From the NCBI RefSeq assembly GCF_964355755.1, contig NC_092679.1, forward strand, positions 21,886,432-21,950,431: a stretch of 64,000 bases of DNA, given 5' to 3'. A program made the position numbers and the translations under genes. The stretch's first letter is position 1; every line of letters starts with the position of its first letter. Positions 2,603 through 35,199 of this stretch are shown one piece after another. The notes beneath the pieces are model-generated. The model worked only from the letters and a program-made list of their open reading frames with translations, ran no database searches and was not told the DNA's origin. Source of the stretch: Antedon mediterranea (taxonomy: Eukaryota > Echinodermata > Crinoidea > Comatulida > Antedonidae).

Positions 2603-5600
2603 AGCAACTGGACCGAATCGAAGAAGGTCTGGACCAAATTAATGCCGACATGAAGGAGGCGGAAGAGAATTTAGCTGGATTAGAAGCCTGTTGCGGAATA
2701 TGTACATGCCCGTGGAAAAAGTAATAGGGCGCTTTCGATTTGCAATTACCTATGACATAGGTCATGTTATTCGATCTGTCGTCGGCCATTACATGGAGCT
2801 GGACGCCACCTATGTATAGAGCAAGGAAGCACATCCCCAACTTCCCCTCATGCGCACAATGAATTAAAATCAACATGATGTAGTAGGTTGTCGGTCGTCC
2901 CAAATCCCAAACATGATGTTTAACACTCGACTGGCTCCTTGATTTTGAGCGGCCTTTGATCCTTTGATATCATTCTCAAAATTAATAAATTCATTTTTGA
3001 ATTCTATGAGTAATCTGTAAACAAGTCATAAGAGATCAAATAAGCAATTTTAATATTAACGTGTACAATAAAGGTCATATGAGAAATTGACCTAGTAATT
3101 TACTGGATTGAAAATTGTTGTTAATTTCTTAGTGTAATGGCTAGTAACACCATTTATGTTTATTGGAGATAATATAAATCTTTTGACTATGTGTTTTGTA
3201 GCTAGTTTATGAATGTAAACACTGTCAAATGTTAATTGGTTAACACAAAATACTTACACACATTGAAAATTGGCTAGCAAGCAATACCATTTATGATTGG
3301 ATATAAATATTTTGACTGTGTTTTGTAGCCAATTTACTAGATAAGGAATGTAAACACTATCAAATGTTCATTGATTAACGCACAAAATAAAGTAAACACA
3401 TCACATCAGATCATTAATTGAATTTACTGACTATTATTACAGATGTTTTTTACGTTAAATTTTACAGAAGTGCTTGTTTGATCTTTTATGAAAATGAATG
3501 AAAATAATTGTTAAATTAATTATATTTCTGTCTTTCCAAATTTTAGAATGTTTAACTTTGAAGGTGGTGATGATTACAAGAAGACTTGGCAAGGCAATGA
3601 TGATGGTGCGACGGGCGCTCAACCGATGCGTGTAGGCGATGATAGAGATGCCTGTGCGGGCAACTCTTCCTATGTTACTAGGTATCTTTTGAATGTTCTA
3701 GAGCAGCATGGTGCAATCATTTTTTAACCTTTTTGGTTTAAAATTTATTTTATAATTAGAATTCTTTGATAAAGGTTTAAAAAGATTGTGGAGGTCACTC
3801 CAATGTGATAAAGATTAATAAATAGATATTACATTACAGTACTTAAATATATATTATATTACTGCAAGCACTGAGTACCTACAGAAATGGCACTCTCAAA
3901 GTAAAATTGAGAGGAATATTACACTTAACACAACAAATACACTATTTCAAATAAACATATGGCACAATAGCTTAGCGGTTAAATTTGTATACTAATTCCA
4001 AGGTCCCTGGTTCAAATCCAGACTTTGCCACGATACCATGATTTTTCTTTATGACCTCCTCCATCTTTAAATGAGATTTTGTTTAAATAGAAAGCAAGGT
4101 TTAAGCCGTCCTCTACTGTAATAGGCATTCCCTCCGCAAAGCTCTGTTTAAGCCGTCCTCTACTGTAATAGGCATTCCCTCCGCAAAGCTCTGTCTACAT
4201 TTTATGTGACAAAAAAAAAGTGATTTGCCCATATGGACATGATGATGTCATGTCACTAAAACATATTTCGCCATATCACACTACCATATTTTGGCAAATC
4301 ACACTTTTTTTGTCAAACTAGTTTGATAGTGTAGACAGAGCTTTGGGGGGGGGGGGGGGGAATAGAATGTTATAAATAAGTTCTTCATGGATACTGTCTA
4401 CCGTTTGATGATACATGACTATTTTTTAGGATAACGAATGACGCTCGAGAAGACGAGATGGATGAAAACATCGGACAAGTCAACTCTTTAGTAGGCAACC
4501 TACGGCACATGGCTCTTGATATGCAGAATGAAATATCGGGCCAGAACCAACAAATCGACCGCATTAACGACAAGGTGAGGAGGCTTGCATAAATATAAAA
4601 AGAACTTTTATCATTTCATTTATTTCATCAATTTAAAAACATGATAAAACAAAACAGGACTAAACAACAGGATTAAACAAAAGCAAACTTAATTGCTGTA
4701 CAAATTTTCTCCACCGACAACAGGATTAAACAAAAGCAAACTTAATTGCTGTACAAATTTTCTCCACCGTCACATCAATTTGTGTGAACCATTGTTTGTG
4801 TAGCTTAAGCTCTATCTACACTTTCAAACTTTATGTGACAAAAAAAATGTAATATGCCCATATATAGACACGATGATGTCATATCACTACCATATTTGGG
4901 TATACCCCTACCATATTTGGGCACATCACACTTTTTTTTTGTCAAACTAGTTTAATAATGTAGACAGAGATCTACATTACTATAGTTGACAAGATGCTTC
5001 AAAACTTGTACATCACGATGACATTATTCAAAGAGAACATTTCAAAATTCATCCAATAAATATTTGATTATTATCAACCATGAATAATTCAGTTAACACC
5101 GATGAAATTCAACCCTGGTTTTAATCTAATATATTCTCCCATACCTACATTTTAAATTGAGTTATCAACATCAATAGCAATTTAGTAGTCATTCAGGGAC
5201 AGTGCAATTATATGTGTGAAAAATGATTGCATGTTTTTTCCCTATGATTTCAATCGCTATGGGTTCAGACTTATCAAAATTGGGTAGCAAAAAAGTCATC
5301 TTTTCTTTGTTGTAAATTTTTAAAATAATATAGCGGTAAGCAAAAATGTGTGCATATTTTTTTCTAAAATCTTAAGGTCTATCTACACTATCAAACTTTA
5401 TGTGACAAAAAAATGTGATGTGCCCATATATGGACATGACGATGTCATATCACTACTATATTTGACCTACGTAATTTGACCAATCACGATGTGATAGGTC
5501 ATCCGAACTGTCGCTTTTGATTGGTTAACATACTTGCATTGCGCCTGTGTCGTTTAATGGATATCCCGGATTTTGAAACAGAGGGTCTAAAATGAAGTCT

Positions 5601-8600
5601 TAAACTGAAGAATCTTATCAATATCTTTTGCATTGTAAATTTCACATTTTGGGGTTTGGATTCCCTCCACACTTGGATTTGCCTAGTGAAGGATGGTGAG
5701 GTCCCAAGTATTGAGATTTCCAAGGTTTTTTATATAAATTTATAAAAACGACGTAGTAGTTGGTGGTTGGAAGGGTCTTTGATGCTTTAATTGCAAAGAA
5801 AACTGCATCACCTCACCTTCCCCCATTACTATCAATTCCAGCATGAGCATGATTAAAGATTATGTATAAGTGGATCAGGTGTTAACAGAGTGATCAATTT
5901 TTTTAAAGTTATCTATAATTAACTAGAAAATGTTTTTCTTTTTTCTTTACTGGATATTTTGTCTAGACAAAATTAATCTTCATTTATCTAAAAGAATATT
6001 AAATTGAAGCTTGGTTGCACAGTGTCCATACTACAATTTAAAACAAATTAAATTTGGAACATTTTCTGCACACAATTAACAGTCTTTATGCTAGAAATAT
6101 CCAACCAGGGGCTGATTCAGGATTTGTTAAACATTGAATGCTAATATATAATATTAATAGTCTGTCAAAAAGTAGTTCATATGCGGTGTCTGGATCTGCC
6201 TTCCACCCAACCCCTAAAACTAGTTTGACAAGAAAGTGTAATGTGCCCAAATATGGTAGTGATATGACGTCATCATGTCCATATATATGGGCACATCACA
6301 TTTTTTTGTCACATTAAGTTTGATGGTGTAGACAGAGCTTTATTTTGGCTTTGCAAAACAAGGAAATACAATTTATTTTGGTGATGGGTATACTGTATTT
6401 GGTGTGTTGGGCAGGTATTATGTTGTTTTGCTTGGAAACATTTTTATGAAAATAATTTTTTTCAAATATATTTTTCCAACTAATCATAAAGATTTCTTTT
6501 ATTTTTTATTATAATTATTACAGTCTATTAACTATTGCTATTTTTATTACTATAACTTATACTAACTAATATAAATAATTCTTATTAATATTATATAATG
6601 GTTATTTTATATTATCTAGATTACATTTTAAAATCATATTCATAACAGTACAATATTAACGTCATACTAACCTTTCATATCAACTGTTTTTTTCTCTTTT
6701 TCTCTTCAATCTTGCATCGCAAACTTCAACAGGCACAATCAAACGTGGGCCGCATATCAGTGGCAAACGAACGTGCAGCTAAGCTACTCAAATAGCGGGC
6801 CGCTTCTAAATAAAAGGCATTCGACCAAGATTGCAGCACAGCATGTGTCAAGGAAACACAAATTCTTGGTGGTCACATATGTGATATGTGAAGAGATACT
6901 TTAAAAAAATCGCGTCGTTATCTTTGTTCAAAATTTAACCACCCTGTATTGTTAGATTTCCAGTTGATTTTATTCCAAAATGACTAGAGTTTGTTTAAAA
7001 AAAATCAGCATCTATCACGATGTTATATTTCAAAAGAGTTAATTAAACATTCTGTATGTTGGGCTGAGTTGGCATTTGAGCGACAGCTATTTTAAAACGA
7101 TAATTAAACACTGTATATATTTAAACTCAACTCAGAGTTTTTAAATTTTGACGGAAACTATTTTAAAGAAATAAAATACTTTTATGTGACTGAGGAAAAG
7201 TATTTAAAAGTTACCATACAAAAATGCTTGTGTTTTCTCCAATATGGGTATATATTATAGTATATTTATTTTGGAAAATTCATGAATAAATTGTCTGACC
7301 ACTATGATTACACTTTCCTGTGGTCTGATGAATATACTAAATGTTTAATGCAATACAACTCAACGGCAACTGTTAAATAACAGTATTACAAATTGAATAG
7401 TATTGTGGTATAGCTTATAACCAACTTGGGGTATAAGCCTTACTATCAATCTCTATTTAAATTCATTGGAAGAGACTTTTAACCAAAATCATAAATCGCT
7501 AGTCATTTTGGAATAGACTCGGTAGAACAAGAATCCCCCCTTCTTTGACCAGTAAGTCTGTGTGTCCCCCTCTTCTTATTAGGTATCAAACCCATCATGT
7601 ATTCTAATTCATCACTACATATGAAACGTAAATCTTAGGGCTAAGATAAGTTTTTTGTATTTTTAGAACATTTTATCCAAATAAGGGATGATTTATTGTA
7701 GGATTATAGCATTAAGTGTGTTTAAAGTGCACAATTTATTCAGTACTTTTTCAATAAGATTATTTTTTGTCTTTGTTTAAAAAAAAGTGTTTTTATTTAA
7801 ATTTGTGCAATATCGTTTAAATGTTCATAAATTACTTTAGATTCTTTGTCATATAGAATAGTATTGTATCGTATTTTTCTGTTGAAATCACCTTTGAATC
7901 AATTTATTTAGTGTAATAGATCAAAACAAAATTAGTTGACTTACTACATAGTTTGTTATTGCTAGGCCTAATCATGAATGATAATATGTAGCTGTTTGTT
8001 TTTTTTATTCTAGCTATACTCAGTAAAAATGTCAATTAAGTTCAACCACCTCTAATGATAGAGCAGGGAGCTGTTATTAGCCCGGATAGAGTTAGCAGTC
8101 AGCTTTCCCAATTAATGCTCTGCCTACACTATCCAACTTTATGTGACAACAAAATGTGATGTGCCCATATATGGACATGATGACATCATATCGCTACCAT
8201 ATTTGAGCACACACTGGTTTGATAGTGTAGACAAAGGTTAAGACGAATGTTTGAATTTCCATTTTGTATTGGGAGAGTTGACTAAATATTATAATAAAGT
8301 TTAGTTAGATAAGGTTTAGATTACTGTCTTATTAAACACATTAGCATAGACATCCATAGTACTATTCCATCCCATGTTTATCATTCCTTGTTCATCATAT
8401 TGTCACCGCAGGATTTTCATTAAGGCACTAAACCATATTCTAGTCAGTATCTAATAGAGAGAGCTTTTGAATCGATTTTCATTCACCTAGTAGCTGTAGT
8501 ACCTAAGCCTCGATCAGAGACATCACATATACTATATTATCACAGCAGTTGTCCTACACTTAGCCCTATACTTCCCTACCTATTTTCTCAGTCCGTAGAT

Positions 8601-10371
8601 CACCATTTCCTCCCCCTACCATCACCATACTAGATACCTAATCCTTCCAGTTTTTTCCCCCCAGTAGGTCGAAATGCCTAAAGAACAAGTTGTAGCCTAT
8701 TCATAATTTGTCGTGTTGAGATCCATTTTAGATGTATATAGATTAAATATGTACAGTACACATTAAGTTGAATTTCAGTATTCAGTATCCAAATAGTTCT
8801 ACTTAAATTGATTTATTGTATTATAATTAAGGTACAATTTTGTTTCCATTTATTTTATGTTGATATATATAAATTTCTTATGCATTACATTTTTTTGTAA
8901 TGTCCAATTAGGTAATTTTTTTTCATATACGTCCGTGTGTGCAATAGATTGTACAAAATAATAACACCTGTATTTGTAATAGAGAAATGGCACCACCAAT
9001 AATGTTCAAATCAATTTTAATCCTATTAATTATTTATTTTTAATATAATAAATGTTTCAGCTTACTTACAATATTTCATGTATTTATATTCAACTAGTAT
9101 ATATATCACAAATTTTACTTTTTTTTTTTTTCATGCTTTTTCCTACACATATGATTTCAATATTTTTCAAGCACATACAAATGTTAATGTTTCTTAATTC
9201 CATATACTAACATTCAGCCAGTTTTAAAAAAATTAGGCACAATTTGGATGCCAAATTGGCAGCCATCAAGCCTCCAGGAAAATGTTTGTTTTGGTATTCA
9301 GGAAAGTAAAAAATCTCTCACATCTCCCGACAATCACCGTCAGTTGTTTTATGATATTTCAAGTGATATCCCGTCTCCTGCTAAAGGTGGAATTTCTCCC
9401 GATTGATGGTATTGGATATACAGTACCTTGTATACTACAATGGTATATAGGGATAAATAAAATTGATAGCAAGGGTGGAAGAAAAGGTGGGATGGAGTGC
9501 GATGTGTAGGATGTTGGAGAAGGGAGAGAGAAGAGACTTATTTACTACACTACACCTGAATACCATAAACAGTCATTTTCATGCATGCCATCCTGTTGCT
9601 TTATTTTCCTTTTATTTGCTTGAATATCTGTGCACGTACTGAACAGTATAAACTTTTTTGTTTTCATATTTTGTGAATATTAACATTTTTCTTATACAAT
9701 TTTATTTTCAGCTTTTTAAACAACTTTATTTGACATTTATCAATTTTTCACAATAGCATACAAAAAAAACTCTTTACTTAACAACAAAGATGAGAAAATG
9801 CACTAAAAATGTATACATTTTGTTTATAAAGTAGAACCTCTATTAAGGGGACACCTTCTTCAAACAAATTTCCTAATATGGCTGTACCATGAATAGGTGT
9901 TGGTCATAATGCTAAAACATATATGTCCCCTTGTTTGTTTTATGAGAAAGTGGCCCTTTAATAAGATGTCTCCTTAATAGGATGTCCAATTAATAGGGTG
10001 TCCCCTTAATAGGGGGTGTCCCATTAATAGGGTGTCCCATGAATAGGGGTTTCCCCTTAAATATGGGTTTCCCATAAATAGGCTGTCACTTTAATAGGGC
10101 GTCTCCTGAACCCTAATATGGGGCCCCATTATTAATAGGATGTCCCCTTAATAGGATGTCCCCTTAATAGGGTGTCCCCTTAATAGGGGTTTCTCTTAAT
10201 AGTGGTGTCCCCAGAGGAGAGTTCTACTAATCTATACTTTTGTACAATGTTAATAGGTATTTCTTTCAATATCTATCTAATTTCAATGTCTCCTATTCAC
10301 AGGCCGAGTCCAATAATGAACGTATACAAGTAGCAGACAAAAGGGCCAAGGATATATTAAGAAAACAGTAA
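2603..10371 (+). CDS. SNAP25: SNAP-25/SNAP-23 family t-SNARE, 3' part of the gene
   Basis: Qb/Qc SNARE that pairs with syntaxin and VAMP to drive membrane fusion at the plasma membrane. Visible coding exons are 2603-2720, 3547-3681 and 4430-4574, then either 6733-6795 or 10303-10371. All introns are GT-AG and the phases agree (1, 2, 2, 0). The fragment begins at about residue 52 of a 206-residue family protein and encodes 153 or 155 residues. In order it has the end of the Qb helix ([14 protein letters not shown]), a palmitoylation-type cluster ([10 protein letters not shown], four Cys), the acidic linker, and the Qc helix ([18 protein letters not shown] onward) with the zero-layer Gln in NQQIDRI. 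The 5' exons are outside the window. SNAP-25 versus SNAP-23 cannot be settled, because invertebrate members predate that split. Confidence 0.93.
3959..4035 (+). repeat. tRNA-derived SINE head in a SNAP-25 intron
   Basis: A-box-like TAGCTTAGCGGTTAA followed by a B box, GGTTCAAATCC, at 4009-4019. The spacing is tRNA-like and the flanks are unrelated, so it is a SINE remnant rather than a working tRNA. Confidence 0.6.
4099..4192 (+). repeat. 47-bp tandem duplication at the edge of a MITE
   Basis: Two nearly exact copies (4099-4145, 4146-4192) of a unit starting GTTTAAGCCGTCCTC. Each copy ends with the first bases of the MITE terminus (AAAGCTCTGT), so the duplication took in the edge of the MITE at 4186 and happened after it inserted. 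Confidence 0.85.
4186..4344. mobile_element. Family-1 MITE, copy 1
   Basis: Inverted termini AAGCTCTGTCTACA and GTAGACAGAGCTTT enclose inner inverted arms (GTGACAAAAAAA / TTTTTTTGTCAAACTAG). It lies in the SNAP-25 intron before exon 4430. It is one of 14 related copies in this window and carries no coding sequence. Confidence 0.85.
4345..4360 (+). repeat. Poly-G tract
   Basis: Sixteen consecutive G directly after the end of MITE copy 1, about 70 bases before the acceptor of the SNAP-25 exon at 4430. The exact length may be unreliable, as homopolymers often are. Confidence 0.8.
4665..4770 (+). repeat. 53-bp tandem duplication
   Basis: Two almost identical copies (4665-4717 and 4718-4770) of a unit beginning CAACAGGATTAAAC, in the SNAP-25 intron just before MITE copy 2. 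Confidence 0.85.
4807..4972. mobile_element. Family-1 MITE, copy 2
   Basis: Begins CTTAAGCTCTATCTACAC and ends GTAGACAGAG. The centre carries ATGATGTCAT and a repeated ACTACCATATTTGGG. The left side shows TTAA and the right side is decayed. Confidence 0.8.
5374..5466. mobile_element. Family-1 MITE, copy 3 (truncated)
   Basis: The left half is intact (GGTCTATCTACACTATCAAA, then ATGTGCCCATATATGG). The right arm is missing after TACTATATTTGACC. Confidence 0.7.
6216..6341. mobile_element. Family-1 MITE, copy 4 (left end lost)
   Basis: Starts inside the left arm at AAACTAGTTTGACA and runs to a good right end, GTAGACAGAGCTTT. The centre has the palindrome TGACGTCA. It lies between SNAP-25 exons 4430 and 6733. 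Confidence 0.75.
6733..6795 (+). CDS. SNAP25: SNAP-25 alternative terminal exon A
   Basis: After an AACAG acceptor the exon reads [20 protein letters not shown] and then TAG. It joins in phase 0 to the shared exon ending in DRINDK and completes the Qc SNARE helix. A poly(A) signal, AATAAA, lies at 7170-7175, so this exon could end its own transcript. It competes with the homologous exon at 10303. The two share the pattern A-x-S-N-x-x-R-I-x-V-A but differ at most other positions. Confidence 0.88.
   Translation, partial: AQSNVGRISVANERAAKLLK
8116..8240. mobile_element. Family-1 MITE, copy 5
   Basis: Left end GCTCTGCCTACACTATC after TTAA, right end GATAGTGTAGACAAAGG followed by TTAA. The right arm is shortened by an internal deletion. 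It lies between the two alternative SNAP-25 terminal exons. Confidence 0.75.
9831..10229 (+). mobile_element. Pogo-like MITE with internal CCCTTAATAGGGTGTC repeats
   Basis: Imperfect inverted ends GTAGAACCTC and GAGAGTTCTAC enclose a degenerate tandem array of a ~16-bp word like CCCTTAATAGGGTGTC. Ends of the GTAGAACCTC type recall Tc1/mariner-pogo non-autonomous elements; the class is inference. It lies just before alternative exon B of SNAP-25, and related elements are at 24491, 32903 and near 49640. Confidence 0.6.
10303..10371 (+). CDS. SNAP25: SNAP-25 alternative terminal exon B
   Basis: After a TTCACAG acceptor the exon encodes a 22-residue end ([18 protein letters not shown], then LRKQ) and TAA at 10369-10371. 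It joins in phase 0 to the exon ending at 4574. Its length matches the last exon of vertebrate SNAP-25 better than exon A, which is two residues shorter. AATAAA at 10444-10449 follows 73 bases after the stop, and another lies at 11308-11313. The charged RAKDILRKQ ending differs clearly from exon A. Confidence 0.9.
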   Translation, partial: AESNNERIQVADKRAKDILRKQ

Positions 10372-13300
10372 CATATGAAGATGATCTTATAATGTGTTTG
10401 TGCTAAATTTTCTACTTCAAGTGACAACCAATTTTTAATATGAAATAAAGATACTCAAAATAGAAGTTATGATTAATAGAATAAATTACAATGACTGAAT
10501 TAATGTTTTACAAGTTATGAAAATGAATTTGTAAAAAAATCCCAGAAAGTTTTTGTGTAAAACAAAGAGTTAACAAAAAAAAAATGTATTGTTAATTTGG
10601 CCCATAAATTATATAATCACTTTGTCCCATAAATTAAACTAAATATGTAATAATTTTTATTCTCATAGATTACTTTAAATATGATATTTCAAACAAACTT
10701 AACTAAAATCTCTTTTTATAACAAATTTTTCGCTTAAACAACAATTGACATACATTTATACAGTACCAAAAGATCTACTGAATTTCAAGTAAAACAAGGA
10801 TTTTTGACTGTTAAATTGAAAACAAGTTTATAGACTTCAAAAAAATTATTAATAATAATAAAAGTTTAATAAAATATTTTAACCATATGATTTGTTTTCG
10901 TCATATGGTTGCATATGTTTATTTTTAATAACAATTCTTTGTATAAAAAAAAATGTTGTTATGCGGCATAGAATTTATGGATAAGGTATGTATGTTTGTA
11001 GCTGTCGTAATAAGCTAAATTTATTGTATTCCCTGTTTTCCAGGCATGTATCTCAGTGAAAATGTTTGTAGTATTTGTGATTTTTGTAGCATCGATTATA
11101 GTGTTATTTTTGTAGCACTTGAGCATGTTGATATATAGATTATATATGAATTTTTCTTTTTTTGTTACACAAACTATATTATATTAAGTATTGTTTAACC
11201 TTTTTTATGCTATATGATTTTTATAGGAATATTTCTTTGTATTAGTAAGCCAAAGTTCTTGATTTTAATTTCTATTGTTAATATTTTCCTAGATTTATGT
11301 TACTTAAAATAAACATTGTACTAAATCATATGTGACGTGTGTATTTCCACTCATTAAAATCTCCCCTTCCCAACTATAAGCCAATATAACTCAGCAATGC
11401 ACTGTACAAATAAAGAGTTACATCAGATAAGAGTAATTAAGGTGTATTCTAAAATAAATTAAGCTTAAAGAGAGGATGGAGAAGACAGAAATATTCACAA
11501 TAATACTGTATTGTTAAAAAATAAGTAGATATAATATATGTGTACCAGTGATATGTGAACATAGTAAAAGTATTGTACATAAAGTATAACAATTATTATA
11601 AATGTATTCTTATTTTCTTTAATTTTAAGTACTATATAATTAATTATAGGATGATAATAACTTAAAATGTAATAGATGTCTTTAAATTTAAGTTCTAAAA
11701 ATGATCTTCTAAATTGTTGTATACCAATGCAAAATTATCCATTCCATGGAGCAACCGTAATATTTTTAGTGTGAAATAACAAAAAAATGTCGTGCTTTGG
11801 GTATCCATATTGCACACAACTTATCAGATGTATGAGGAATGTTAGCTGATCAAGCCCATAGCCAGGGAGGTTCCCTTTGTTTCTGTGGGTTTCCCTTTTT
11901 CAAACTAGAGGCACAACTAGCCCAACTATCCCAGCTAATGATAAGGCTTTCCGCTTTGTAGAAAAAAAGCGACCCTCTTCGTCCAGGCTGTGGGCTTGTT
12001 TTAAACAAATGAATATTGACGTATTGAACAAAATGGCTGTAAAATTTTTAATCCATCAAATAACTCATTTAAGAGCTAATATAATGGAAAACGAATTTAC
12101 AGATATAACTAGTTCCTAGGTTGTCGTAAATCAAAAGCTCCATAATATCATAAAACCGAAATGCTCTTATATAACTGATTATATTCGTTGCTAAGTAACA
12201 GACAATGATTAGCATTAGAAAAACATAAATTTAGTCTTTCAAAATTTTGCTTGTGATGTAAAAAATAAATCAAAACAAATTACAATTGCGTTTCTTTTAA
12301 ATGTTTCCATTCAATAACTATAGGTGTATATTTTCATTTTAGATAAAATTTGATGGCCGTATTGATTCTGAAAAAAATGACGAAAAAATTGTTAAATCAA
12401 TTTTAGTTTTACTCTAATTGCCAATGGTGATATTTCTATATATTTTTTTATTATGATATAACAATCTGAATTGTTAAATTTCAAAATTTTAATAAGTAAA
12501 AATTATTTTTTTTTGTATTCCAATATTTTATCTGCTACTTTCTTCATGGTTTTGTATCATTTTTCATCTGATAATTTTTGGAAAATTGATTTTTCAATTT
12601 TTTGAGTCGTTTTCAATGCAGTCAATACATTTATCACTTTTTAGTATGTGAGTGTTAATAAATCAGAAAAAAAACTAACAGTATTTTGATCAATTCATTA
12701 ATTATCCAACCAAGCGGAAGTATGGCTTGGTTGTTGATTACCATTGGCTGATTATGAAGACGTCGTTTGAATTGCACGTTGGAGAGAACTTTGAACTGAG
12801 CCAAACAAATTCTAAAATTGGAAATATCAAAAGGCAATAAAGTCAAGTCAAAGTTCATAGTTTAAATTGCTGATAGAGGGCAGTATTCACTCCGATCAAG
12901 ATACTGTAAAATAATTGCTTATGCTAAAATGTATATTTTTTATGCTGAAGTCGTCCTTTTTTTACACCTAGGCACAAAATAATCAAAAGTATATGAACCA
13001 TTGCAGTTGTCTATGCTGTAAATTTCATTTTTCACCTCATGAAATTATTCGTACCATTGCACTCGTAAACAGTCATTATTTGTTACTTATCAAATAAGTA
13101 TAGAACTAGCAAGCACATTGAAAGCCATAAATTTTTAAAAGATTTCATGTTTAAGAATTTGTGTATCCGCCATACCACAGTACCTTTTTTCCAGTGTGAA
13201 TTATTAAATTAATAGCACCACTGCTGTAGGCCTACAAAATGTAAACTACTTTTCTTATTTTAAATGTAAAACAATCGTTTTAAAACAGATATTGATGTAC

Positions 13301-14028: not shown

Positions 14029-17000
14029 ATGGGAGGTACTGTATCTAGAGATGATTTTGAGTGGGTTTATACAGAAGAACCACATGTTTCAAGACGCAAA
14101 GCAATACTTAGTGAGTACTTACTGTAGAGTGTAAGCCTAGGCCTAGCCTATTTATATTATAATCATCAGGGTGATGGAAAATTCTGAGTGAGCTGTTCAC
14201 ACGTAGAGTCTATAGGCTAGGCCTAGTAGTAGTAGGGCGGCCGGCTATTAGGCTAGATCATGGAAACGAAATAGAGGATAGTTAGGCCTAGGCTATATAC
14301 AGCCTACGTACTAAGGCCTAGGCTAGCCTATATATAGGCCTAGTAGGATGATGGTTTTTGATTTACTTTTAATTTATAATATTTAAATGAAGGAAAGGGG
14401 AGAGGGGCTATTCTATTGTTAGGGCCTAGGCTACATACAGTATCTAACCATCATAATAAAGGTAAGTTTATGTACGAATATATGGGCCTATTCAATTTTG
14501 TTTTATGTTAAAATTATGTTGGGTATTAATAGGCCTAGAGGCCTATAATTATGACAATTCAAATAAATAATAAAGCAATGGAATAGGCCTATCTATAGAA
14601 ATAGGCCTAGTTAGTAGAGGCTTTTAGGTAAACCTAGGCCTATCCTTCAAAATTACAATTAAAATTTATTTATAGATTCCACTAAATTCAGAATTTCCAA
14701 GGTAGGCCTAGATCCTTCAACAAGAAGACTGTTTTTGTTAACTTTCTTAGTATTACTTGTTTGTACAGACAGATAATAAGACTAACTACCTTGTTGACAG
14801 CAATGCAAACAATACAAAAGCCTGTTCATATTTGCTTTGCTTTGTTGATTGTTTTTTTATAATCTTGTGCTGATATTATTGTCTAGATAACTAAATAAGG
14901 AAACATGCTACTGTCATTTTATTGATAGCATGATTACATAGGTAAATAACGTCCAAATTTGTTCCTAAAATAAGACAATGAAATGAAAACTAAATATTTA
15001 CAAGCAAATGCATTAAATTAGAAACCATCTTTAGAATTAGAAAAATCTTAATTTAATTCCAATGGGGTCCTTTAAAAACAGCATTGACAATCGCAACAAA
15101 CGGTATACTAACATATCAAACACGCATGACAATAAAATATGGCAGAGAAGATATACAATTTTAAAATATGAGACAAACAAAATTGGATGACCTACACTAA
15201 TTGCAAAAATAGGAGAGCTATGTCTACACTCTCAAACTATTTTGAAAAAAAAAGTGTTGTGCCCAAATATGATAGTGATATGACATCATGTCCATATATG
15301 GGCACATCACACTTTTTGTCACATAGAGTTTGATAGTGTAAACAAGGCTGAAGACTAGAGTAAGACTTCTTTTGTGTTCTGAAAACCCTTTGTCTAATTT
15401 CTCTCTAAAAAACATAGATGTATGCTACACATACAAATTTGTTTAGTCAATAATAACACCTGCAAAGTCTGAACTATAATCTTGAAAATGTCTATGATTA
15501 TTATTTGCCAATAAAATGTCCCATAAAAGCTTTGCTAGCGGAAGTTATATTGGCTATGCTTTGTATATGTCCATCTAAAGTTCAATTGTTTAGTTTTTAA
15601 TCACAAATGAAGTGAACTGAATGACTTTTAGGGTGACCTTCAATCTACAAATAGGTATTATCAAAACCGATTTGATTTAGGTAATTGTAAATCATGCACC
15701 ATCTTCTACAAAAGGTTTGATTTAATAGAAAGATTAACATTGGTCTGAATGTATGCCTGGCTGGGAAGATTAAATGAAGGATTAAGCTTATAAATGTGTA
15801 CAGTATCAGTACCACTCTCTCTGATTGGATTGGTCCTTAATCATCCAAATACTATGGTTCTTGTTAAAAATTATTATTTTTGTTAAAATAGGAAATGTTT
15901 AAATTGACTAATCAGGGCTCGAAATTAACTCTTTTTTTTTCTCTGCGCATATTGTCAACTCTCCCAATACCAGATACCTTTGGGCTGGCCTAATATGTCT
16001 GGTTTTCTATAAAGTCTGGTATTTAATTCCTTAAAAATTGAATTTACAGTCTTTTTTACAAGTACTGTACAATCAAAAGCATAAACTAGAAGTGTGACAT
16101 TTTTGCTTGCTTTTGAAAATTTGGAAACAAAAATGAGTAGTTTGTTATAGTAAATTTTGTGCCCAGATAAATATAATCTGATAATACTGACTAAATATTT
16201 AATTGATACTATTCAATTTTACATTTAAATTTTTTCAGAAAAATATCCGGAAGTTAAGAAGTTGATGGGTCATGATGACAACACAGCTTCTACCATGGTT
16301 GTTATGGTATTGACCCAGGTCTTGACCAGTTACCTACTCCAAGACCAGTCATGGTTGACCATACTAATAGTAGCATACTGCTTCGGAGGCGTAGTCAATC
16401 ACTCTATGACACTTGCCATTCACGAAACCGGACATAACCTGACGTATGGCCACGGTCATCCGATGCGGAATCGTCTGATAGGTTTCATCGGTAACACCAT
16501 ACTCGGTGTACCAATGTCGGTTTCGTTTCGGCGCTACCATCATGACCACCATCGTTATCAAGGGCAGGAACATATGGATCCGGATATACCAACTCATGCA
16601 GAGGGCGTACTATTTCATAATAGAATCACGAAAATGATATGGATGTTTTTCCAACCGTTGTTTTACACTCTACGTCCATTTTTTTTACGACCAAAAGTTC
16701 CCGGACGTTTAGAATATTATAATCTCACGGTACAGTTAATATTCAATGTATGCCTTGTGTATTTCACAAGTTATAAATCGTTGGCATATTTATTGCTTTG
16801 TACTTTTATAAGTTTAGGACTTCACCCGATGGCGGGACACTTTATTTCAGAACATTACGTAGCTGTTGGAGATTATGAGACGTATTCGTATGAAGGGGCG
16901 TACAATTACCTAGCTTTCAATGTTGGATATCACGTTGAGCATCACGATTTCCCAAATATACCGGGCAAGAATCTACCACTGGTAAGTCTTATTTCATGCT

Positions 17001-17522
17001 AGAGTATGCTTATAGCAAACTTTCCTTTATGGAGGGTAAACAATTTAACATTGAGCCGAAACAAAAGGAACATGTATTCTGTCTAATAGTAAACTTAGTA
17101 TAATTTAATAACTATAAAATAAAACAAATAATATTTTATTTGTCATTGAATTAGTGACACATTTTAAGGTATGCTTAAGTCAACAGATAACAAGAACGCT
17201 CGTGTCAACTGAAAAGTATGAGGGCGCTTCTGTCACCATGAAACTGATTGCTAAAACTACTTTAGATTGGGCTGATGTCATAACCCAGTTGAGTTCATGT
17301 CGGCCTTACAGTAACGTCCCTTAAAATCCTATGTTATATTTATAACTTCATATTTTTCAGGTTCGTAAAATCGCACCAGAATTCTACGAAGACCAGAAGT
17401 GTCATGAATCGTTCACGGCTGTTGTTTGGGACTTCATTATGAACCCTGAAAATGGACCATTCAACCGTATCAGACGACCCGACGCGCGCGACCCAAGTCT
17501 ACCTGATCCTTGGATACGTTGA
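14029..17522 (+). CDS. DEGS1: Sphingolipid delta4-desaturase, copy 1
   Basis: Membrane di-iron desaturase of the endoplasmic reticulum that inserts the delta4 double bond into dihydroceramide to give ceramide. Exons: 14029-14110, 16239-16981 and 17361-17522 (phases 1 and 0, GT-AG), 328 residues against 323 in human DEGS1. The N-terminus [19 protein letters not shown] matches the family's Lipid_DES start and keeps the Gly2 used for myristoylation in known members. The three histidine boxes are HETGH (about 89-93), HHDHH (128-132) and HVEHH (259-263), the last followed by DFPNIPG. Hydrophobic segments lie around the boxes. It ends in [11 protein letters not shown] paralogue follows at 22455. 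DEGS1 versus DEGS2-like activity cannot be told from sequence alone. Confidence 0.93.
14111..16238 (+). other. Intron 1 of DEGS copy 1, rich in GGCCTA words
   Basis: Between 14130 and 14710 the word GGCCTA, mostly as TAGGCCTA or CTAGGCCTAG, occurs at least ten times, giving a patchy self-complementary texture. The rest is plain AT-rich intron apart from one MITE (15215-15349). No extra exon seen. Confidence 0.7.
15215..15349. mobile_element. Family-1 MITE, copy 6
   Basis: Left end GAGCTATGTCTACACT, right end GATAGTGTAAACAAGGCT. The centre reads GATATGACATCATGTCC. It lies in intron 1 of the first DEGS gene. Confidence 0.8.
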
Positions 17523-20162: not shown

Positions 20163-20990
20163 TCGTCTTCTTTTATGCATAACTGCATACTTTATAGGCC
20201 TTGTACTCATTTTAAGCTGGTCACAAAAATATGTTATATTTTCAATTTATCACTAGTCCTACAATTTGTTTGCATTTCCTGATGTATATTTATCCCAAAA
20301 AAATTGTTACAATGTTCAGAAATGATATCAATTGAAAGAATTGTTTATTCAAGTGTTCTAAGGTGTGTAATATTGACTGGACTTTAGACTATTATCGTCA
20401 TGGCAATACATGAACAATTTAGCTAATTATTATCATAATAGATAATAGTATTAACAGTCCTGGCTTGGTCTAAACAATTTTTATTTGGCCTTAATATTAA
20501 AATATACAAATATTCTCCGAATTTGATTTTAGGATTATTACAGTATATATTACAGTATTACTATTCTTAAGTTGTTTTTTTTTTTGTGAATTTATGTAAA
20601 ATTTATTTCTATGCATTATTTATTCTATTACAAAGATGTGTAAAAAGTAAGGTACTTATATCCTTGTTTTATTATATAGTAACATTTTTCTACAGTATTG
20701 TAATTGTATTATTCAATAATTAGAAACAAAAATGATATTACCCATGATATGATATAGGTATTTACTTATTACTTTCACAATATTCCTATACCTTCATGGA
20801 AGCGTTTGTCTGTGATGGCCCATTCGATATCTATTGTAAAAATCAGTTGTATATTTAATTGGAGCCTGATGATGAATTATTGGAATAAGAGTTTTGTTTT
20901 ATGGTTGTTAAAATATATTGATTGATCAATTAATGTTTTCAGTGTTTTTCATTAAGTGTGCCTGTTCTCAGAGTGTATTGGGAATATTGT
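20163..20990. other. AT-rich intergenic stretch
   Basis: No gene or complete repeat recognised between the family-3 MITE and the LINE fragment. Confidence 0.5.
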
Positions 20991-22061
20991 AGGCCTACTC
21001 CTGTACTCTTTGCTGATGATCTTCTCATTTATAGACCCATTCATTCAGATACCGACTCTACAATTCTTCAATCTGATCTTCATTCCATTCACCAGTGGGC
21101 ATCTGCAAATTCTATGTCATTTAACCCAAAGAAGACAAAAGTGATGCAAGTTACTCGGAAGAAAATATATATGTCTCACACTTACTTCTATAATGGTCAA
21201 CCTCTTCTCACTGTCTCCTCACACAAATATCTTGGTCTTACTCTCGACAACAAATTATCCTGGAATGAACATATAAATAATGTTGTTTCTAAGGCAAACA
21301 GAATGTCGGGGCTTATTTTTAGTGTTGCTAATAATGCTTCAAAACCTGCTTTACTGTCTCTTTTTAAATCTTTAATTTTACCAATTCTTGACTATGGACT
21401 TCCTGCTTGGTTGCCTCAAACCAAGTCCCAGTCAATCCGCATAGAGCGCATCCAACAAAATTTTACAAGAAGAGTTCTAAAATGTAAAAGAGGAGAGATA
21501 CCATACCTTACCAGGTTAAATTCTTTTAACCTCATGTCTCTTGAAAACCGTCGCAACAAAATCCTTTTTCACTTTATTTTTAAATGTCTTTATGGCTTTA
21601 CTGACTGCTCTTCTGTCATCCAGAATCTCACTATCAATCCTAGACATACTGAAGACCTCACTTTTAATCATCTCTTTTCTCGAACACTGGCCCTTCGTAA
21701 TTCTATAAACCGCTTCCCTAAACTTTGGTCTCGGTTACCTTCCTCATTACGCCAATTACCTGTTACTGAATCTTTTCCTCATCTTTTATCATCTATTGAC
21801 TCTTTCCTTCTTGATAATTATCTTTAATTATTTTTTATTCAAATTTTTTTGTATATCATATCTGTTTTGTTTTTTCTGTATACTCACAGCTTTATACTTT
21901 ATTTGTTTATAAAATTATATAATTATTTTAGTTAAGATCATGGGACTGCTGACTCTTGTAGTTACAGTAATCGTATTACTTTAGCAGTCCCTGACCAATT
22001 CATCTTTGTACATTGTATATTATGTTTTGTTGGTCAAATAAATAAATGAAATGAAATGAAC
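20991..22061 (+). mobile_element. 5'-truncated non-LTR retrotransposon (RT C-terminus)
   Basis: An uninterrupted reading frame to 21827 starts within the reverse-transcriptase palm at TPVLFADDLLIY (catalytic FADD) and continues through KTKVMQV, YLGLTLDNKLSW, the thumb and the LENRRNK region typical of CR1/Jockey-type elements. The polymerase N-terminus and any endonuclease are missing, so it is a dead 5'-truncated insertion. An AT-rich 3' tail follows and ends in an AAATG-type microsatellite near 22040-22060. The clade is a family-level guess. The frame is free of stops, so the insertion may be fairly young. Confidence 0.85.
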
Positions 22062-22454: not shown

Positions 22455-25230
22455 ATGGGAGGGGTTGTTGGTACGGTTTCAAGAGATTCATTCGAATGGA
22501 CTTACACCGAAGAACCGCATTTTTCACGCCGAAAAGAAATGCTGAGTAAGTTGTCCTAGATTGTTGTTTACTTATTAATATTACTAGGCCGTTATGAATG
22601 GAGCGGGATCTCTGGATTTGGTAACCTGATACGAATCCACTGAGGTACAATCAATTAACTATTTAGGAGGAATGTTGTAGGCCTAGCCTTTTAAATAAAG
22701 AAAAACAAGACAACTTCGCGCTTTATTGTTGCATTTTAAAGATTTAGAAATTTAGTTTAGAGATTTAGTACAAGAAAATCCATATGGCATTGCATTCATG
22801 CTTTCTTTCACCATTGAAAAGATCGATATTTACTATCTTACCACACTCTATTGATAACGCAAGCAAACATGCGGTGGTGACGAACGTGGATTTTGTGTTT
22901 GTTTTTGCATTGCAAGATTAGAAATACGGAGTACGTGACGTCGGACTTGTCATACATTTTAAACCGGTCGATGATATAATTTTCTTTTCATCACAGTTTA
23001 GTCTTATTAATAATTAACTGTTAATACAAATTTTAAAATCAACTTCCCCCTACCCATACATACATTCCATAGAAAAGAGCTAGCCTGTATTTGCTCCTAC
23101 TAATAACTAGGCCTACATAGTTTATCATGAAATTAAACCAGGCATGTTATTTCCCTTTTTATGCTTGATGATGGCCAGCACCACATATCCATCTTGCATT
23201 GTGATTGGTCAATAGTTTTAACATGTGGTTTTCGATACCATTGGCAATATGATGCCTAACTTAACAGCGATTTGGAAAAGAACTTTTTTATTACAAGTTG
23301 TTAGAACTCTTAAAATAACATTTTTAATATAATTTACATATTGACCAATTTCTTATCTGACCCCCTGTATTATGAAATATCTATAATTAGTCTTATCATA
23401 ATCTCATCAATCAAACCCAAACTTGTCTTGTGAAAGTCATAAAATCAAATTTAGGTCAAAGTATAGAGATCATTAGCCACTGTAGCTTTATATAAGTTCC
23501 AAATATTCTCACCGCATATCATCGTGTGTATATAAAGTACAATTAATAAAGGTTTTGGTTTTAATACTATATATGTGGTATGTCATTTTATTTTTTAAAA
23601 TTTTGTCCAATGAGTTTCCACAGAACATATTAAATATCCAATTTTATTTACTTTTTCTTCAGAAAAATATCCTGAAATTAAAAAATTAATGGGCCATGAC
23701 AACAACATGGCAATGATTATGGTTGCTATGGTGATAACCCAGGTAATAACGTGTTACCTAATACAGGATGAATCTTGGTTGACGGTTTTGATTGTCGGTT
23801 ACTGCTTCGGCGGCGTTGTCAACCATTCAATGACTCTTGCACTCCACGAAACGGGGCATAACCTACCGTTTGGGCACAGCAGACCATTGCGGAATCGATT
23901 GATTGGTTTCCTAGGCAACTGCGTCATTGGTGTCCCCATCTCTATATCATTCCGTCGTTATCATCACGATCATCACCGTTACCAGGGTGAGGATAAACTT
24001 GATCCAGATATACCATCAGATTTGGAAGGCGTACTTTTTCGTAATCGCTTCACAAAAATGATATGGATGATTCTGCAACCAGGATTTTATGCAATTCGAC
24101 CGTTTTTAAAGCGTCCGAAAGTGCCTTGTAAAATGGAGTTTTATAATTTATTGGTGCAGCTTATATTTGATATTGCAATAATTTATTTTATGAACTGGAA
24201 AGCATTGGCTTATCTGTTTTTCGGAACTGTACTCTGTATGGGGATACACCCATTGGCTGGTCATTTTATTTCTGAACACTATTTATATGCTGGTAATGAT
24301 GAAGAAACATATTCTTATTATGGTCCCTACAACTACATTGCATTCAATGTAGGCTACCACATGGAACACCATGATTTTCCCAACATACCAGGACCGAAAT
24401 TACCTCTGGTAAGACATTTTCTTTTTTTTGTATATCGAGTCTGGATATATAAATTTTTTTATAAATTTTAAACGAATGACATAATAGTGTACTACAGTAA
24501 AACCCTGCTTTGGGACAACTCTAATAATGGGACACCTCTATTAATGGGACACCTCTATTAATGGGACATCTCTATTAATGAGACACTATTAATAGGACAT
24601 CTCTATTAATGGGACACACCTATTAATATTACATCTCAATGGGACACACCTACTACAGTATTAATGGGACATACCTATTAATGGGACACACCTATTAATG
24701 GGACATACCTATTAATGGGACATACCTATTAATAGGACATCTCTATAATTGGAACACACGTATTAATGAGACACACCTATTAATGGAACATACCTATTAA
24801 TAGGACATCTCTATTAATAGGACATCTCTATTAATGGGACACCTCTTTTAATGGAACACCTATTAATGGGACATCTTTATTAATGGGACACACCTATTAA
24901 TAGGACATATCTATTAATGGGACACTCCTATTCATGAACACTTATGTGTGAAACAAACAAGGAGAATATGTTTAAACATTACATACCCTTCCCTCTATTC
25001 ACTCCTATAAAAGACGCATCGGAAATAAAATATATTATAGGCCATAAAATCAATGTTCTTTCTTTCAGATTAGAAAAATTGCACCTGAATATTATGATGA
25101 CTTACCGTCACATGACTCGTTTGCAGCTGTGGTTTGGGATTTTATAATGAATCCACAAAGTGGACCATTCAATCGTATCAAACGGCCAGCGTCCAAGGAT
25201 CCTACAACACCTGATCCATGGGTTATGTAA
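22455..25230 (+). CDS. DEGS1: Sphingolipid delta4-desaturase, copy 2
   Basis: Paralogue of the gene at 14029, with the same reaction and location expected (dihydroceramide to ceramide, ER membrane). Exons: 22455-22545, 23663-24408 and 25069-25230, with the same phases (1, 0) as copy 1, 332 residues. The N-terminus MGGVVGTVSRDSFEWTYTEE has three extra residues. Histidine boxes: HETGH (92-96), HHDHH (131-135) and HMEHH (263-267). Intron 2 holds a minisatellite (24491-24945). The last 13 codons plus TAA form a 42-bp unit that is repeated twice more downstream of the stop. Alignment by eye shows the two copies very similar across exons and unrelated in introns, so this is an old tandem duplication. 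Confidence 0.93.
22546..23662 (+). other. Intron 1 of DEGS copy 2
   Basis: Ordinary AT-rich intron between the GTAAG donor at 22546 and the TTCTTCAG acceptor. No repeat family recognised. Confidence 0.6.
24491..24945 (+). repeat. Minisatellite of CCTCTATTAATGGGACA units
   Basis: More than 20 degenerate copies of a ~17-bp unit (CTATTAATGGGACACAC and variants) fill most of intron 2 of DEGS copy 2. The left edge, CTACAGTAAAACCCTGC, resembles the pogo-like TIR seen at 9831 and 32903, so the array probably grew from the subterminal part of such an element. Confidence 0.8.
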
Positions 25231-31751: not shown

Positions 31752-34700
31752 TTAGAAGTTCACATCTTCTGTAAAGTTAATGCCAGGTACATTAGAAGTT
31801 TGCTGATGCATGTAATGACCATTCTCTGGCATTCGTTCTGCTTCTTCGAACTTTCTAGGCATCGGTCGCTTCCCTTCACCCATGCGCCTGTAGTACTCCA
31901 AGTCTCGCGGCAACGGCTGACGCTCACGGAATTCTTCTGGAGGTGGACGGCGATATTCTTCAGGTGCTCGTCTGTATTCTTCCTGCGGCGCTCTTCGGTA
32001 GCCCGCACCCGATGGGGAAAGCCTGTTGTAGAAGCAAATCAAGAATTCTGGGAATGGTGGGAATGGTTGTACTTCCATTCCTAGAAAAAAATGGTTAATT
32101 TCTGTTAACTGAAAATCAAAACAGTAGTGTTAACGCGTAAGGTGCGACTCTGGTGTCAAGTACACAGCGATGAGGCCAACATTTTAAAGTTTATTTTAAG
32201 TCCCCAACTTCAAAAATTCTGCTCGGCAGAACACAAATCGCTGTTCATTTATATCGATCTTTAACCACAATGCATAATTCGAGCAACAATATTGAAAATT
32301 ACGATAAGCTGTCGATTTTTTTCGTCAGTTAAAAACGATAAATCTGCGAGATACAGTAGTTTTACCGATAGCAAATACATAATCCGTTGCAACATATTTT
32401 TAAAGCTGAATTCTGTTTTTATACATTACCGTACCGGGCCGCAGTACATTTAAATACCGAAGGCACCCGTGTCGAACTTGATTTCTTGCTTGACCTGTCC
32501 AAAGTTCTCGATAACTTTTAAACACAATATTGTACAACTCATCGTCATAGTCCAATTGATCCACGAGGATTCTTTTCATCTTGACATGCCCATGTCAATC
32601 ATACTTTGTGAATGTTCATTGTTCTTCGATGTTATCCATTGTACTGCGATACGTGATGTTGAGTTGCGGTGTTTTCCGATCCATGAACCACGATGTATCA
32701 TCCTGCGATTATTTCCATCGTTTTTTCTCGCATCAGTTTAAACAAATTTACTTACTATAACATTTTTATTACTAATCTGGAAAAGTTCATCTTCGGAAAA
32801 GAAGAATTTTAAATGATCTACGCAACGACATAAACACATTTCTATGTTAATGTTCGAAAGCTTAGTGACTTTAATCTTTGATGATAATGCTAATGTAATA
32901 GACAGTAGAACTCCTTTGGGACACCCCTTTTCAAGAGACAAACGAAAAGATGCCTGAACGCTTCGGCCAGCCCACATTCAGAGAACACGTTTTTTAAACG
33001 GCCCTTTGGTCGTGAAGGTGTCCACTTAATAGGGGTCCTACTGTATTTGAAATGTATTTGTGAGAGCTTATGGTGAGATAAAAGATTATTCGAAATTTTA
33101 TAGGAAATGTTTCTGTACACATTTGCATATTTAACAATAGACACACAAACTGGGATATTATTTAATGCACACAAAACCATCTTCTGTTTAAAAGCGCGAG
33201 GGCACGGCCTACTTGAAGTTGACGTCTTGACGCACAACACGACTCGTGACATACGCGTTCATAAAATGAAGATAATATTGGATTAAAAAAACAGTTTCAA
33301 CGAAAACAAACTTCATTAATAAAATATCAAATTGTGAAAACATTTTCTAAATGCACGAGTGATTATTAACTATGATTTTACTATTTATAATTCTTCACAA
33401 ATAATGACTGTACGAATATGGAATAATAGAACATTTTATCGAATGGAAAAGAAACCCTGGAGGAAATCTTACCTTACGACACCAAAAATAAATGGAAGAT
33501 TTAGTCTTCGAAGACTTTACCCATACCCCACCATTACTAAGTGCCAATTGACGAGGAAATAAATTCCATTATGTGGAATTAAAACTTAATGGCAGGTTTT
33601 TTATCAATTAAGGTCCCAACCCTTTCCCAATACGGGAACCACCTAAAAATGAACCCGTTGCCTACCTTCTAGAATAATCGTAATACGGATCCCTCGCCGG
33701 CACTCTTTCATAGTAACGATCATAGTATTCTCTATGATTGAAAAACAAAAGGTTTTTGGATTTAATTGTAAAGAAAAACAATACGCATGAAGACACTAAT
33801 ATCCCTATCGTGTCAGTTAATGACCATATTAGGAATATTCATGGAGTTTAAAATATGAAGAAACTAAGTTTATACCTTGTTGGAGAAAATCGTCGTCTGT
33901 AACCAGGAGGGGTAACAGGTCGTCTCATGGGTGGACTACGGCTTCGATCTCTGTAACCATAGCCTGGCGGAGGCATGGGGCGCCTGTAGTAGTCGTCATA
34001 ATAGTCATAACCATAACCTTCTCTCATTGGAGGTTGAAAGAAATCGCCATTTGAGAAACCGCCACGTCCACCACCTCTTCCCCCTCCTCCTCTCCCACGA
34101 CCACGCCCTCTACCCCTTCCTCTTGGTCCACTACTGCAATAAATACAAAATGTTTACATGTAAAGAATTGGTAAGCCAGTTAAGGATTTAGCAATAACTA
34201 TTGTGCTGGGATATACAGTACTACATTAAAAATGATATGCCAGCTTTGGCTCACTTAGCATACCAATAACCGCAGATAAAGGACTGTGCCTTATATGTGC
34301 AAAAATAATTTTAACCGTCGAATAAAATAAATAAACAAATTACCCATCTTTATTTGTTGGGCATTCACGTGAAAAATGGCCAGTTTCTCCACACCTAAAA
34401 CACTCGCCCTTTGACCCTATGCCAGGATTTTTATGTACTTCAGTAGTGGAATACTGAACATTAACTTGGCAGTCTCCCATCATTGAATGATGTAGGGCCA
34501 TTACTGCTCGTTCAGCCTCGTCTTCATTTTCCATATGCTATTATTAAATAAAAAAATTGCAATTGTTGTAAAATATCAAGTTAATTATAGGAGATTTTCT
34601 GATCAGTGTATAAAAGTGCATGAATGTATGAGAAAATTGTTATTGAAGGATTTTGGATCACATGATATTCAATTAAATATTCTGTTGAACTATTAATTAT

Positions 34701-35078
34701 GTCATCGAGAATGCAATGTACGAGTAATTATTTATTACATTTTTTTTGCATTATCTACTTTGCATCTAAAGTAAAATTGGGGCAATGCTTTTTCGAATGG
34801 TTAAAAGTGAATGACGAAAATCTGTTCATTCATCATTATTTGTACCAACCACTGCAGTTGCGATTAATAATTCAATTAGTAATTACTGAAAAGCATACAT
34901 CTGAAATTGAGAATAGCCTATATATTAAATTAATTATTAAATCATGACGTACAACAAAACCATAATTTCTTAAGACATCGCACTCAGCAACTATACCATA
35001 CTGCTCAAAGCTTTGTCGCAACTTTTGACTCGAATAGCCATTTGGTAAATTTCCAACGAACAACTTCTTCTTTACCAT
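31752..35078 (-). CDS. RBM4/lark-type RNA-binding protein (RRM plus CCHC knuckle)
   Basis: Nuclear RNA-binding protein; relatives act in splicing and translational control. Coding exons in order: 35078-34953, 34537-34344, 34133-33876, 33731-33666, 32022-31752, all GT-AG with consistent phases, 304 residues. An RRM spans about 4-72, with RNP2 LFVGNL (6-11) and RNP1 NYGFVHM (38-44). A CCHC zinc knuckle, CFRCGETGHFSREC, is at 88-101. Then come an RGG/GRG stretch, a Tyr-rich part (YGYDYYDDYYRRP), SR/SP dipeptides (RDRSRSPP) and a YRRAPEEYRRPPPEEF tail. Vertebrate RBM4 and fly lark have two RRMs; this has one, closest in form to their second RRM plus knuckle. The ATG lies one base after a TTTTCAG acceptor, so the 5' UTR is in an upstream exon. 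The divergent neighbour is UTP25. Confidence 0.88.
32903..33043. mobile_element. Short pogo-like MITE
   Basis: Ends CAGTAGAACTCC and GGGGTCCTACTG are an inverted pair, with internal TTTGGGACACCCC and GGTGTCCACTTAATAGG. The 141-bp element lies in the last intron of the RBM4-like gene. It is the intact short form of the family that has minisatellite expansions at 9831, 24491 and 48800. Confidence 0.75.
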
Positions 35079-35199
35079 TCTGAAAATTTGAACAAAAATA
35101 ATTATTAAATTCAATTCTGACAAAAATTTAACAAAGCAGCCTATGCCTCTTACATGGGCGACGATTATATAGGTTAAACTTAGCTTGGATTTGACGTTC

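Follow-up and report, generated by a model that had tools for sequence, protein, structure and literature searches.

Two tandemly duplicated exon pairs, one of them predicted alternative last exons, in the SNAP-25 gene of the crinoid Antedon mediterranea

SNAP-25 belongs to the core of the machinery for fusing vesicles to the cell membrane. The alternative splicing of its gene is a standard textbook example, associated with the vertebrate brain and with a duplicated exon 5. Vertebrates also carry two Qbc SNARE genes, SNAP-25 and SNAP-23, which serve different exocytosis. Among the syntaxins, C. elegans unc-64 and the syntaxin-3 splice forms have alternative last exons. PMC2581893 reports that exon 5 is duplicated in bony fish and higher vertebrates but not in Torpedo or Drosophila. 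In the mouse, RBFOX2 controls the choice between Snap25 exons 5a and 5b, with sites downstream of the second exon, and its loss in a beta-cell line lowers exon 5b use, as described in portions of PMC10676425. For mutually exclusive exons, excerpts of PMC6071210 set out docker-selector and bidirectional models, in which long-range RNA pairing controls exon choice.

The SNAP-25 gene of the crinoid Antedon mediterranea resembles vertebrate SNAP-25a/b in that tandem duplicated exons bring small surface changes into a conserved SNARE protein of the same family. It differs in which exons are duplicated, exon 5 in vertebrates but exon 4 (E4) and the last exon (E8) here, and the duplications are therefore separate from the vertebrate event. 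The counterpart of vertebrate exon 5, E5, is single in the visible sequence and lies between the duplicated exons, and the initial annotation was right to place the last-exon variation elsewhere than the vertebrate swap. No second E5 was found in 119,000 readable bases of the region (5,000 bases of the E4b–E5 intron being masked) or by DNA search of the assembly. Each vertebrate mRNA takes one copy of exon 5, whereas inclusion of a single E4 is here predicted from the reading frame. SNAP-25 and SNAP-23 are two genes, whereas a single locus with alternative exons was detected here; that exon choice might stand in for these paralogs is only an idea. Like the syntaxins, the crinoid locus is a SNARE gene with variation in the exon for its C-terminus. 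The syntaxin swap, however, concerns the membrane anchor or its neighbourhood, while here an anchorless SNAP-25 would be varied on the outer face of a SNARE helix. Exon duplication in SNAP-25 was known already, from vertebrate exon 5; the E8a/E8b and E4a/E4b pairs are new here. None of the matches listed in the open-access literature described alternative last exons in SNAP-25 or a duplication of its exon 4, and the predicted E4/E8 isoforms may be present, unnoticed, in genome annotation databases.

The window, the whole stretch of 64,000 nucleotides that was analysed, begins at position 21886432 of its contig and contains only the 3' part of the gene. An additional 60 kb upstream in the same assembly was examined to complete it. 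Measured from the ATG in E2 to the E8b stop, the gene extends over ~62 kb (Table 1). The 5,000 masked bases (N) directly before the window fall inside the E4b–E5 intron, and outside this masked segment no further clear copies of E2–E8 were seen in the 119,000 readable bases.

Table 1. Exons, repeats and candidate control elements of the A. mediterranea SNAP-25 locus. Positions are given in the window or on its contig (G000:C10, here C10).
Feature	Description	Position	Strand	Remark
E2	start-codon exon, MAMDEDNAMRSELEELQRKADATTDE	C10 21834890-21834967	+	5' limit open
E3	42 nt, SLESTRRMLTLVEE	C10 21871977-21872018	+	
E4a	49 nt, SQDVGIKTLVMLDEQG	C10 21874259-21874307	+	
Arm A	19-nt inverted repeat, +72 to +90 after E4a	C10 21874379-21874397	+	
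Arm C	from +686 after E4a	C10 21874993-21875015	+	
TGCATG	278 nt before E4b	C10 21877921-21877926	+	
Arm B	19-nt inverted repeat, -107 to -89 before E4b	C10 21878091-21878109	+	
TGCATG	71 nt before E4b	C10 21878128-21878133	+	
Arm C partner	E4b polypyrimidine tract	C10 21878164-21878185		
E4b	49 nt, AKDSGLNTLVMLDEQG	C10 21878198-21878246	+	donor gtggtg, weak by eye
E5	shared exon, 118 nt, Cys cluster CCGICTC	window 2603..2720	+	
E6	linker exon, 135 nt	window 3547..3681	+	
E7	shared exon, 145 nt, second SNARE helix through layer +2	window 4430..4574	+	ends in phase 0
MITE-like repeat	copy before E8a, in opposite orientation to that at 8100-8250	window 6210..6350	+	limits by eye
E8a	predicted alternative last exon, 63 nt, 20 aa + stop, layers +3 to +8	window 6733..6795	+	
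AATAAA	13 nt past E8a stop	window 6809..6814	+	
MITE-like repeat	copy downstream of E8a	window 8100..8250	+	limits by eye
Minisatellite	16-nt unit, GTGTCCCCTTAATAGG, 15.5 copies, TAGG-rich	window 9950..10212	+	
E8b	predicted alternative last exon, 69 nt, 22 aa + stop, layers +3 to +8	window 10303..10371	+	
AATAAA	72 nt past E8b stop	window 10444..10449	+	

Judged by homology, the locus is the SNAP-25 gene of the Qbc SNARE family. Queried with their E5–E8 part, both predicted isoforms match SNAP-25 chains in the PDB (E = 7.2e-50 and 1.5e-48), and each scores 61.7 bits against Pfam PF00835 (cut-off 25). Aligned to rat SNAP-25, the protein has two SNARE motifs with a zero-layer Gln in each, one within LDEQG of both E4a and E4b and the other in E7. 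The cysteines of E5 correspond to the Cys cluster of the linker, their palmitoylation being putative. An assembly search for the PF00835 domain returned one locus, pointing to a single detected SNAP-25 gene. No spliced or processed copy was found in the assembly, where 398 nt of joined E5–E7 DNA matched just the three home exons; this query held no E4 or E8 sequence and could not reveal the isoform of any retrocopy. A whole-genome search with E7+E8a protein gave two matches, E7 and E8a of the home gene, and missed E8b, which marks the search as weak for short exons. The V-SNARE_C family had one match elsewhere on the same contig (24347325).

The initial annotation placed E7, E8a and E8b at their exact coordinates and proposed E8a and E8b as two homologous last exons behind E7, and both proposals stand. 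E7 ends with AAG, followed by gtgagg at the donor. E8a and E8b have the layout of tandem alternative last exons: each has an AG acceptor, opens in phase 0, the same incoming phase, and carries its own stop and an AATAAA poly(A) signal. The two are identical at 10 of 20 residues (50%) and at 32 of 60 bases, with 15/20 second codon positions but only 7/20 third positions shared. Their pair score is 45 (BLOSUM62, 20 aa). Among 1000 sequences generated by a first-order Markov model of the 10.4 kb that follow E7, the highest-scoring acceptor-plus-stop frame came to 29 (0/1000 as high as the pair). In the roughly 59 kb of the window beyond E7, the plus strand contains no acceptor-plus-stop frame scoring >15 other than E8a and E8b. 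No shared intron sequence adjoins the two exons in 1500-nt flanks, which hold four short matches of 16–29 nt elsewhere. At the level of sequence, E8a and E8b are thereby confirmed as homologous, intact and constrained last exons.

What the exchange alters is the surface of the protein. The initial annotation had described it as swapping the layers after the zero-layer Gln together with the C-terminus; the C-terminal tail does change, but the core layers are kept, and layers +1 and +2 lie in the shared E7. Residues were compared in rat numbering, and the layer numbers given to residues of E4, E7 and E8 are those we take to be correct. Layers +3 to +7 read A, N, I, A, A in E8a, E8b and rat alike, and layer +8 is L in E8a, I in E8b and M in rat. 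Outside the layers, E8a and E8b agree at 5 of 14 positions. With the core retained, the swap would alter the outer surface and the C-terminal tail, not core packing. Between residues 186 and 197 there are three acidic residues in rat and in E8b and one in E8a. Positions 186 and 193 are D and D in rat, Q and S in E8a, and E and Q in E8b. The tail ends at the equivalent of rat 204 in E8a and of rat 206 in E8b. According to PMC9623538, D186 and D193 belong to an acidic patch implicated in synaptotagmin-1 binding. Long-term depression of release requires C-terminal residues 198–206, a requirement linked to G-beta-gamma (PMC3102109). Any functional meaning of the surface changes in E8, and likewise in E4, is transferred by analogy from mammals, and exon choice may on this basis tune fusion.

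Both duplicated pairs appear to be old and constrained. For the E8 pair pS is 0.73 and pN 0.385, and for the E4 pair 0.656 and 0.214. Synonymous differences are thus near saturation in both, and the E8 duplication is, on this measure, old. When neutral evolution was simulated 20,000 times with nucleotide identity set to the observed value, at least 10 identical E8 residues were reached in 0.125% and at least five of six identical E8 layers in 0.245%, whereas the E8 frame remained open in 31%; these numbers are rough, as the simulation mutates one copy only, draws on an AT-rich mutation pool and concerns short exons. Near-saturated pS, a lower pN and the rarity of such retention in the simulations together indicate that both last exons were under selection for much of their history, and in their sequences E8a and E8b show purifying selection. 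Duplicated exons can nevertheless survive as relics, and E8b could be a silenced exon marked by the TAGG-rich minisatellite, whose end lies 90 nt upstream of it. It is therefore conceivable, if improbable, that only one last exon is in normal use, the other being a relic or rarely used while still intact-looking. Against this stand the age of the duplication and the open frames, conserved layers, acceptor and AATAAA of both exons; in the neutral simulations, retention of layers was far rarer than an open frame. E8a could be the sole last exon used, or E8b could be fading; the constraint on E8b argues against either.

For the preferred reading, in which both last exons are used, the simplest route would be a competition. 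E7 would be spliced to E8a, with cleavage and polyadenylation past the E8a stop, or E8a would be skipped and E7 joined to E8b. The products would have the same fusion core, and their differences would fall on the second SNARE helix, in the tail and outward face of its membrane-proximal half. Past the E8a stop there are donor-like sites, GTATG at 7054 and GTAAG at 7552 (five donor words from 6796 to 7600), which would allow E8a to act instead as a stop-bearing cassette exon that switches the gene off or leaves E8b untranslated. We regard this as very improbable: the SNARE end encoded by E8a is complete, with none of its layers lost, and an AATAAA follows close behind the E8a stop, and a poison exon would need no such coding constraint.

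The MITE-like copies on either side of E8a have a computed duplex energy of -154.7 kcal/mol, and such a duplex could, in this model, loop E8a out. Several copies of the family are present in the region, however, and the duplex around E8a may therefore be accidental. The repeat, with ends near AAGCTCTGTCTACACTATCAAAC, recurs in both orientations in introns, with further copies at window 4184-4340, 4810-4960, 5380-5460 and elsewhere (limits by eye). TAGG occurs 10 times (0.93 expected) in the 300 nt upstream of E8b, but this sequence is the minisatellite and we do not claim the excess as a regulatory signal. The same holds for ACTAAY, found four times in the 300 nt before E8a (0.19 expected), which may be branch-point or AT-rich sequence. 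Within window 6640-6732, a perfect TACTAAC lies ~60 nt from the E8a acceptor and is followed by a long U/C tract.

Upstream of the window the gene has another duplicated pair, E4a and E4b. Each exon has 49 nt, runs from phase 0 to phase 1 and encodes the part of the first SNARE helix from layer -4 to layer 0. They are identical at 11 of 16 residues, and their pair score is 58, whereas 1000 random sequences gave at most 22 (0/1000 as high). The exons encode residues 39–54; D51 and E52 are present in both forms, and residues 39, 40, 42, 44 and 45 differ. In the mammalian protein, D51, E52 and E55 belong to a patch of the primary interface, as presented in part of PMC9623538. All four combinations of E4a or E4b with E8a or E8b translate through, giving 209 or 211 aa, whereas both E4 exons together, or neither, cause a frameshift and a stop. 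Adjacent, homologous, equal in length and phase, and breaking the frame when jointly included or skipped, E4a and E4b have the layout of mutually exclusive exons. Since only single inclusion keeps the reading frame, either E4a or E4b would be chosen in a productive mRNA. The early stop that follows from including both or none would also permit regulation through decay, so that joining or skipping the pair in some transcripts would lower output and not make two proteins. That this accounts for the pair seems most unlikely, because rat residues are kept at 13 of 16 positions in E4a and 12 of 16 in E4b, with the zero-layer Gln in both.

The intron between E4a and E4b contains a perfect 19-nt inverted repeat, whose arms A and B lie within 110 nt of E4a and E4b. 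In the readable 354-Mb assembly the 19-nt arm has two exact copies, which are arms A and B themselves. Allowing two mismatches gave seven matches, the five inexact ones on other contigs, compared with 43 for a reversed-pattern control, so the inexact matches are due to chance. The A/B duplex is computed at -28.3 kcal/mol; across 2932 background sites the mean was -5.6 and the minimum -17.4, and none of 150 random 19-mers had an equally strong partner within 4.5 kb. The next best partner of arm A lies inside E6 (-20.2 kcal/mol), its others reaching -17.4 or weaker, and the other partners of arm B reach -16.6 kcal/mol or weaker. In the readable sequence between 30 kb upstream of the window and window position 12000, the scan found no third arm that would compete for A or B.

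Whether this repeat forms a regulatory stem or is accidental, for example a small recent inverted copy, we consider an even question. An accidental origin would fit the lack of a competing arm in the scanned stretch, and long inverted matches are not rare, as 4 of 5000 random pairs of 300-nt windows contained one of at least 19 nt. Most long inverted matches in the region, however, are MITE or tandem-repeat copies, whereas this sequence has just its two exact copies in the readable assembly, both beside alternative exons. Moreover, a pair placed at random has a chance of 7.25e-5 of lying no more than 120 nt from the two ends of a single SNAP-25 intron, and about 6e-4 such placements are expected, given eight low-copy pairs of at least 17 nt in the region.

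As a regulatory stem, the A/B pair would share with the RNA-pairing models described in parts of PMC6071210 a strong pairing of distant complementary intron elements at tandem duplicated exons. In docker-selector systems, as presented there, at least two selectors compete for one dock; here the scan of the readable stretch, in which 5,000 bases of the E4b–E5 intron are masked, gave one strong duplex and no competing arm, and a docker-selector layout is thus not seen in the readable sequence. A weaker duplex, between arm C and the polypyrimidine tract of E4b (-25.2 kcal/mol), crosses the A/B stem because of the order of the arms, and one would hinder the other. This recalls the pseudoknot of the bidirectional model in the same excerpts of PMC6071210, although both duplexes here lie within the intron between E4a and E4b and the second is marginal. 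Among random T-rich pieces, 7 of 150 reached -25.2 kcal/mol or better, which makes the arm C duplex a lead only. The E4b acceptor was the strongest of eight acceptors tested with the standard piece (-23.9), and no other site in the assembly matches arm C at fewer than three mismatches. Crossing duplexes, one of them hiding the E4b acceptor, would form a possible switch, which we likewise offer only as a lead.

TGCATG occurs twice within 300 nt before E4b (0.05 expected) and nowhere else within 500 nt of the eight exons. The scan covered nine motifs and 16 flanks of eight exons, and for that reason the excess is only suggestive. The RBFOX sites of the mouse gene lie downstream of exon 5b, whereas the TGCATG copies here lie upstream of E4b. 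That RBFOX-type sites govern the choice of E4 is a good lead and should be taken as nothing further.

Together, the most probable account, in which we have good confidence, is one SNAP-25 gene diversified by two tandem exon duplications, with both pairs alternatively used. We infer that both alternatives enter mRNA, that the stem and the TGCATG sites may control E4, and that the choice may affect release. E4a or E4b would be chosen upstream and E8a or E8b at the end of the transcript. The effect would most likely be felt by partners that recognise the outside of the SNARE bundle, such as synaptotagmin, G-beta-gamma, complexin and Munc18, and altered recognition by these partners would shift release properties by cell type or stage. 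A more specific version, which we think doubtful as a whole, is a 2 x 2 protein set in which the synaptotagmin-binding acidic patches are varied while the fusion core is fixed, crossing stems and RBFOX-type sites set the E4 choice, and the system is separate from the vertebrate exon-5 switch. Under it, E4 would keep D51 and E52 and vary their neighbours, and E8 would rewrite the C-terminal patch at D186 and D193. If true, this would amount to a combinatorial splicing code for release sensitivity.

Two duplicated exons other than vertebrate exon 5 would show which surfaces evolution may vary while the fusion core cannot change. E8a and E8b would serve as natural variants for probing the role of the SNAP-25 C-terminal patch, and the 19-nt pair is a specific, testable candidate for an RNA stem in mutually exclusive splicing.

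The remainder of the window holds further open frames. Two of them, at window 16229-17002 and 23614-24471, carry the fatty acid desaturase domain PF00487 above its cut-off, with sphingolipid desaturase PF08557 below its own, and look like neighbouring paralogs. On the minus strand, open frames at window 31752-35228 resemble an RNA-binding gene by eye, with RRM-like and RGG-rich stretches. A 297-aa open frame at window 20934-21827 appears, also by eye, to be the end of a retrotransposon reverse transcriptase.
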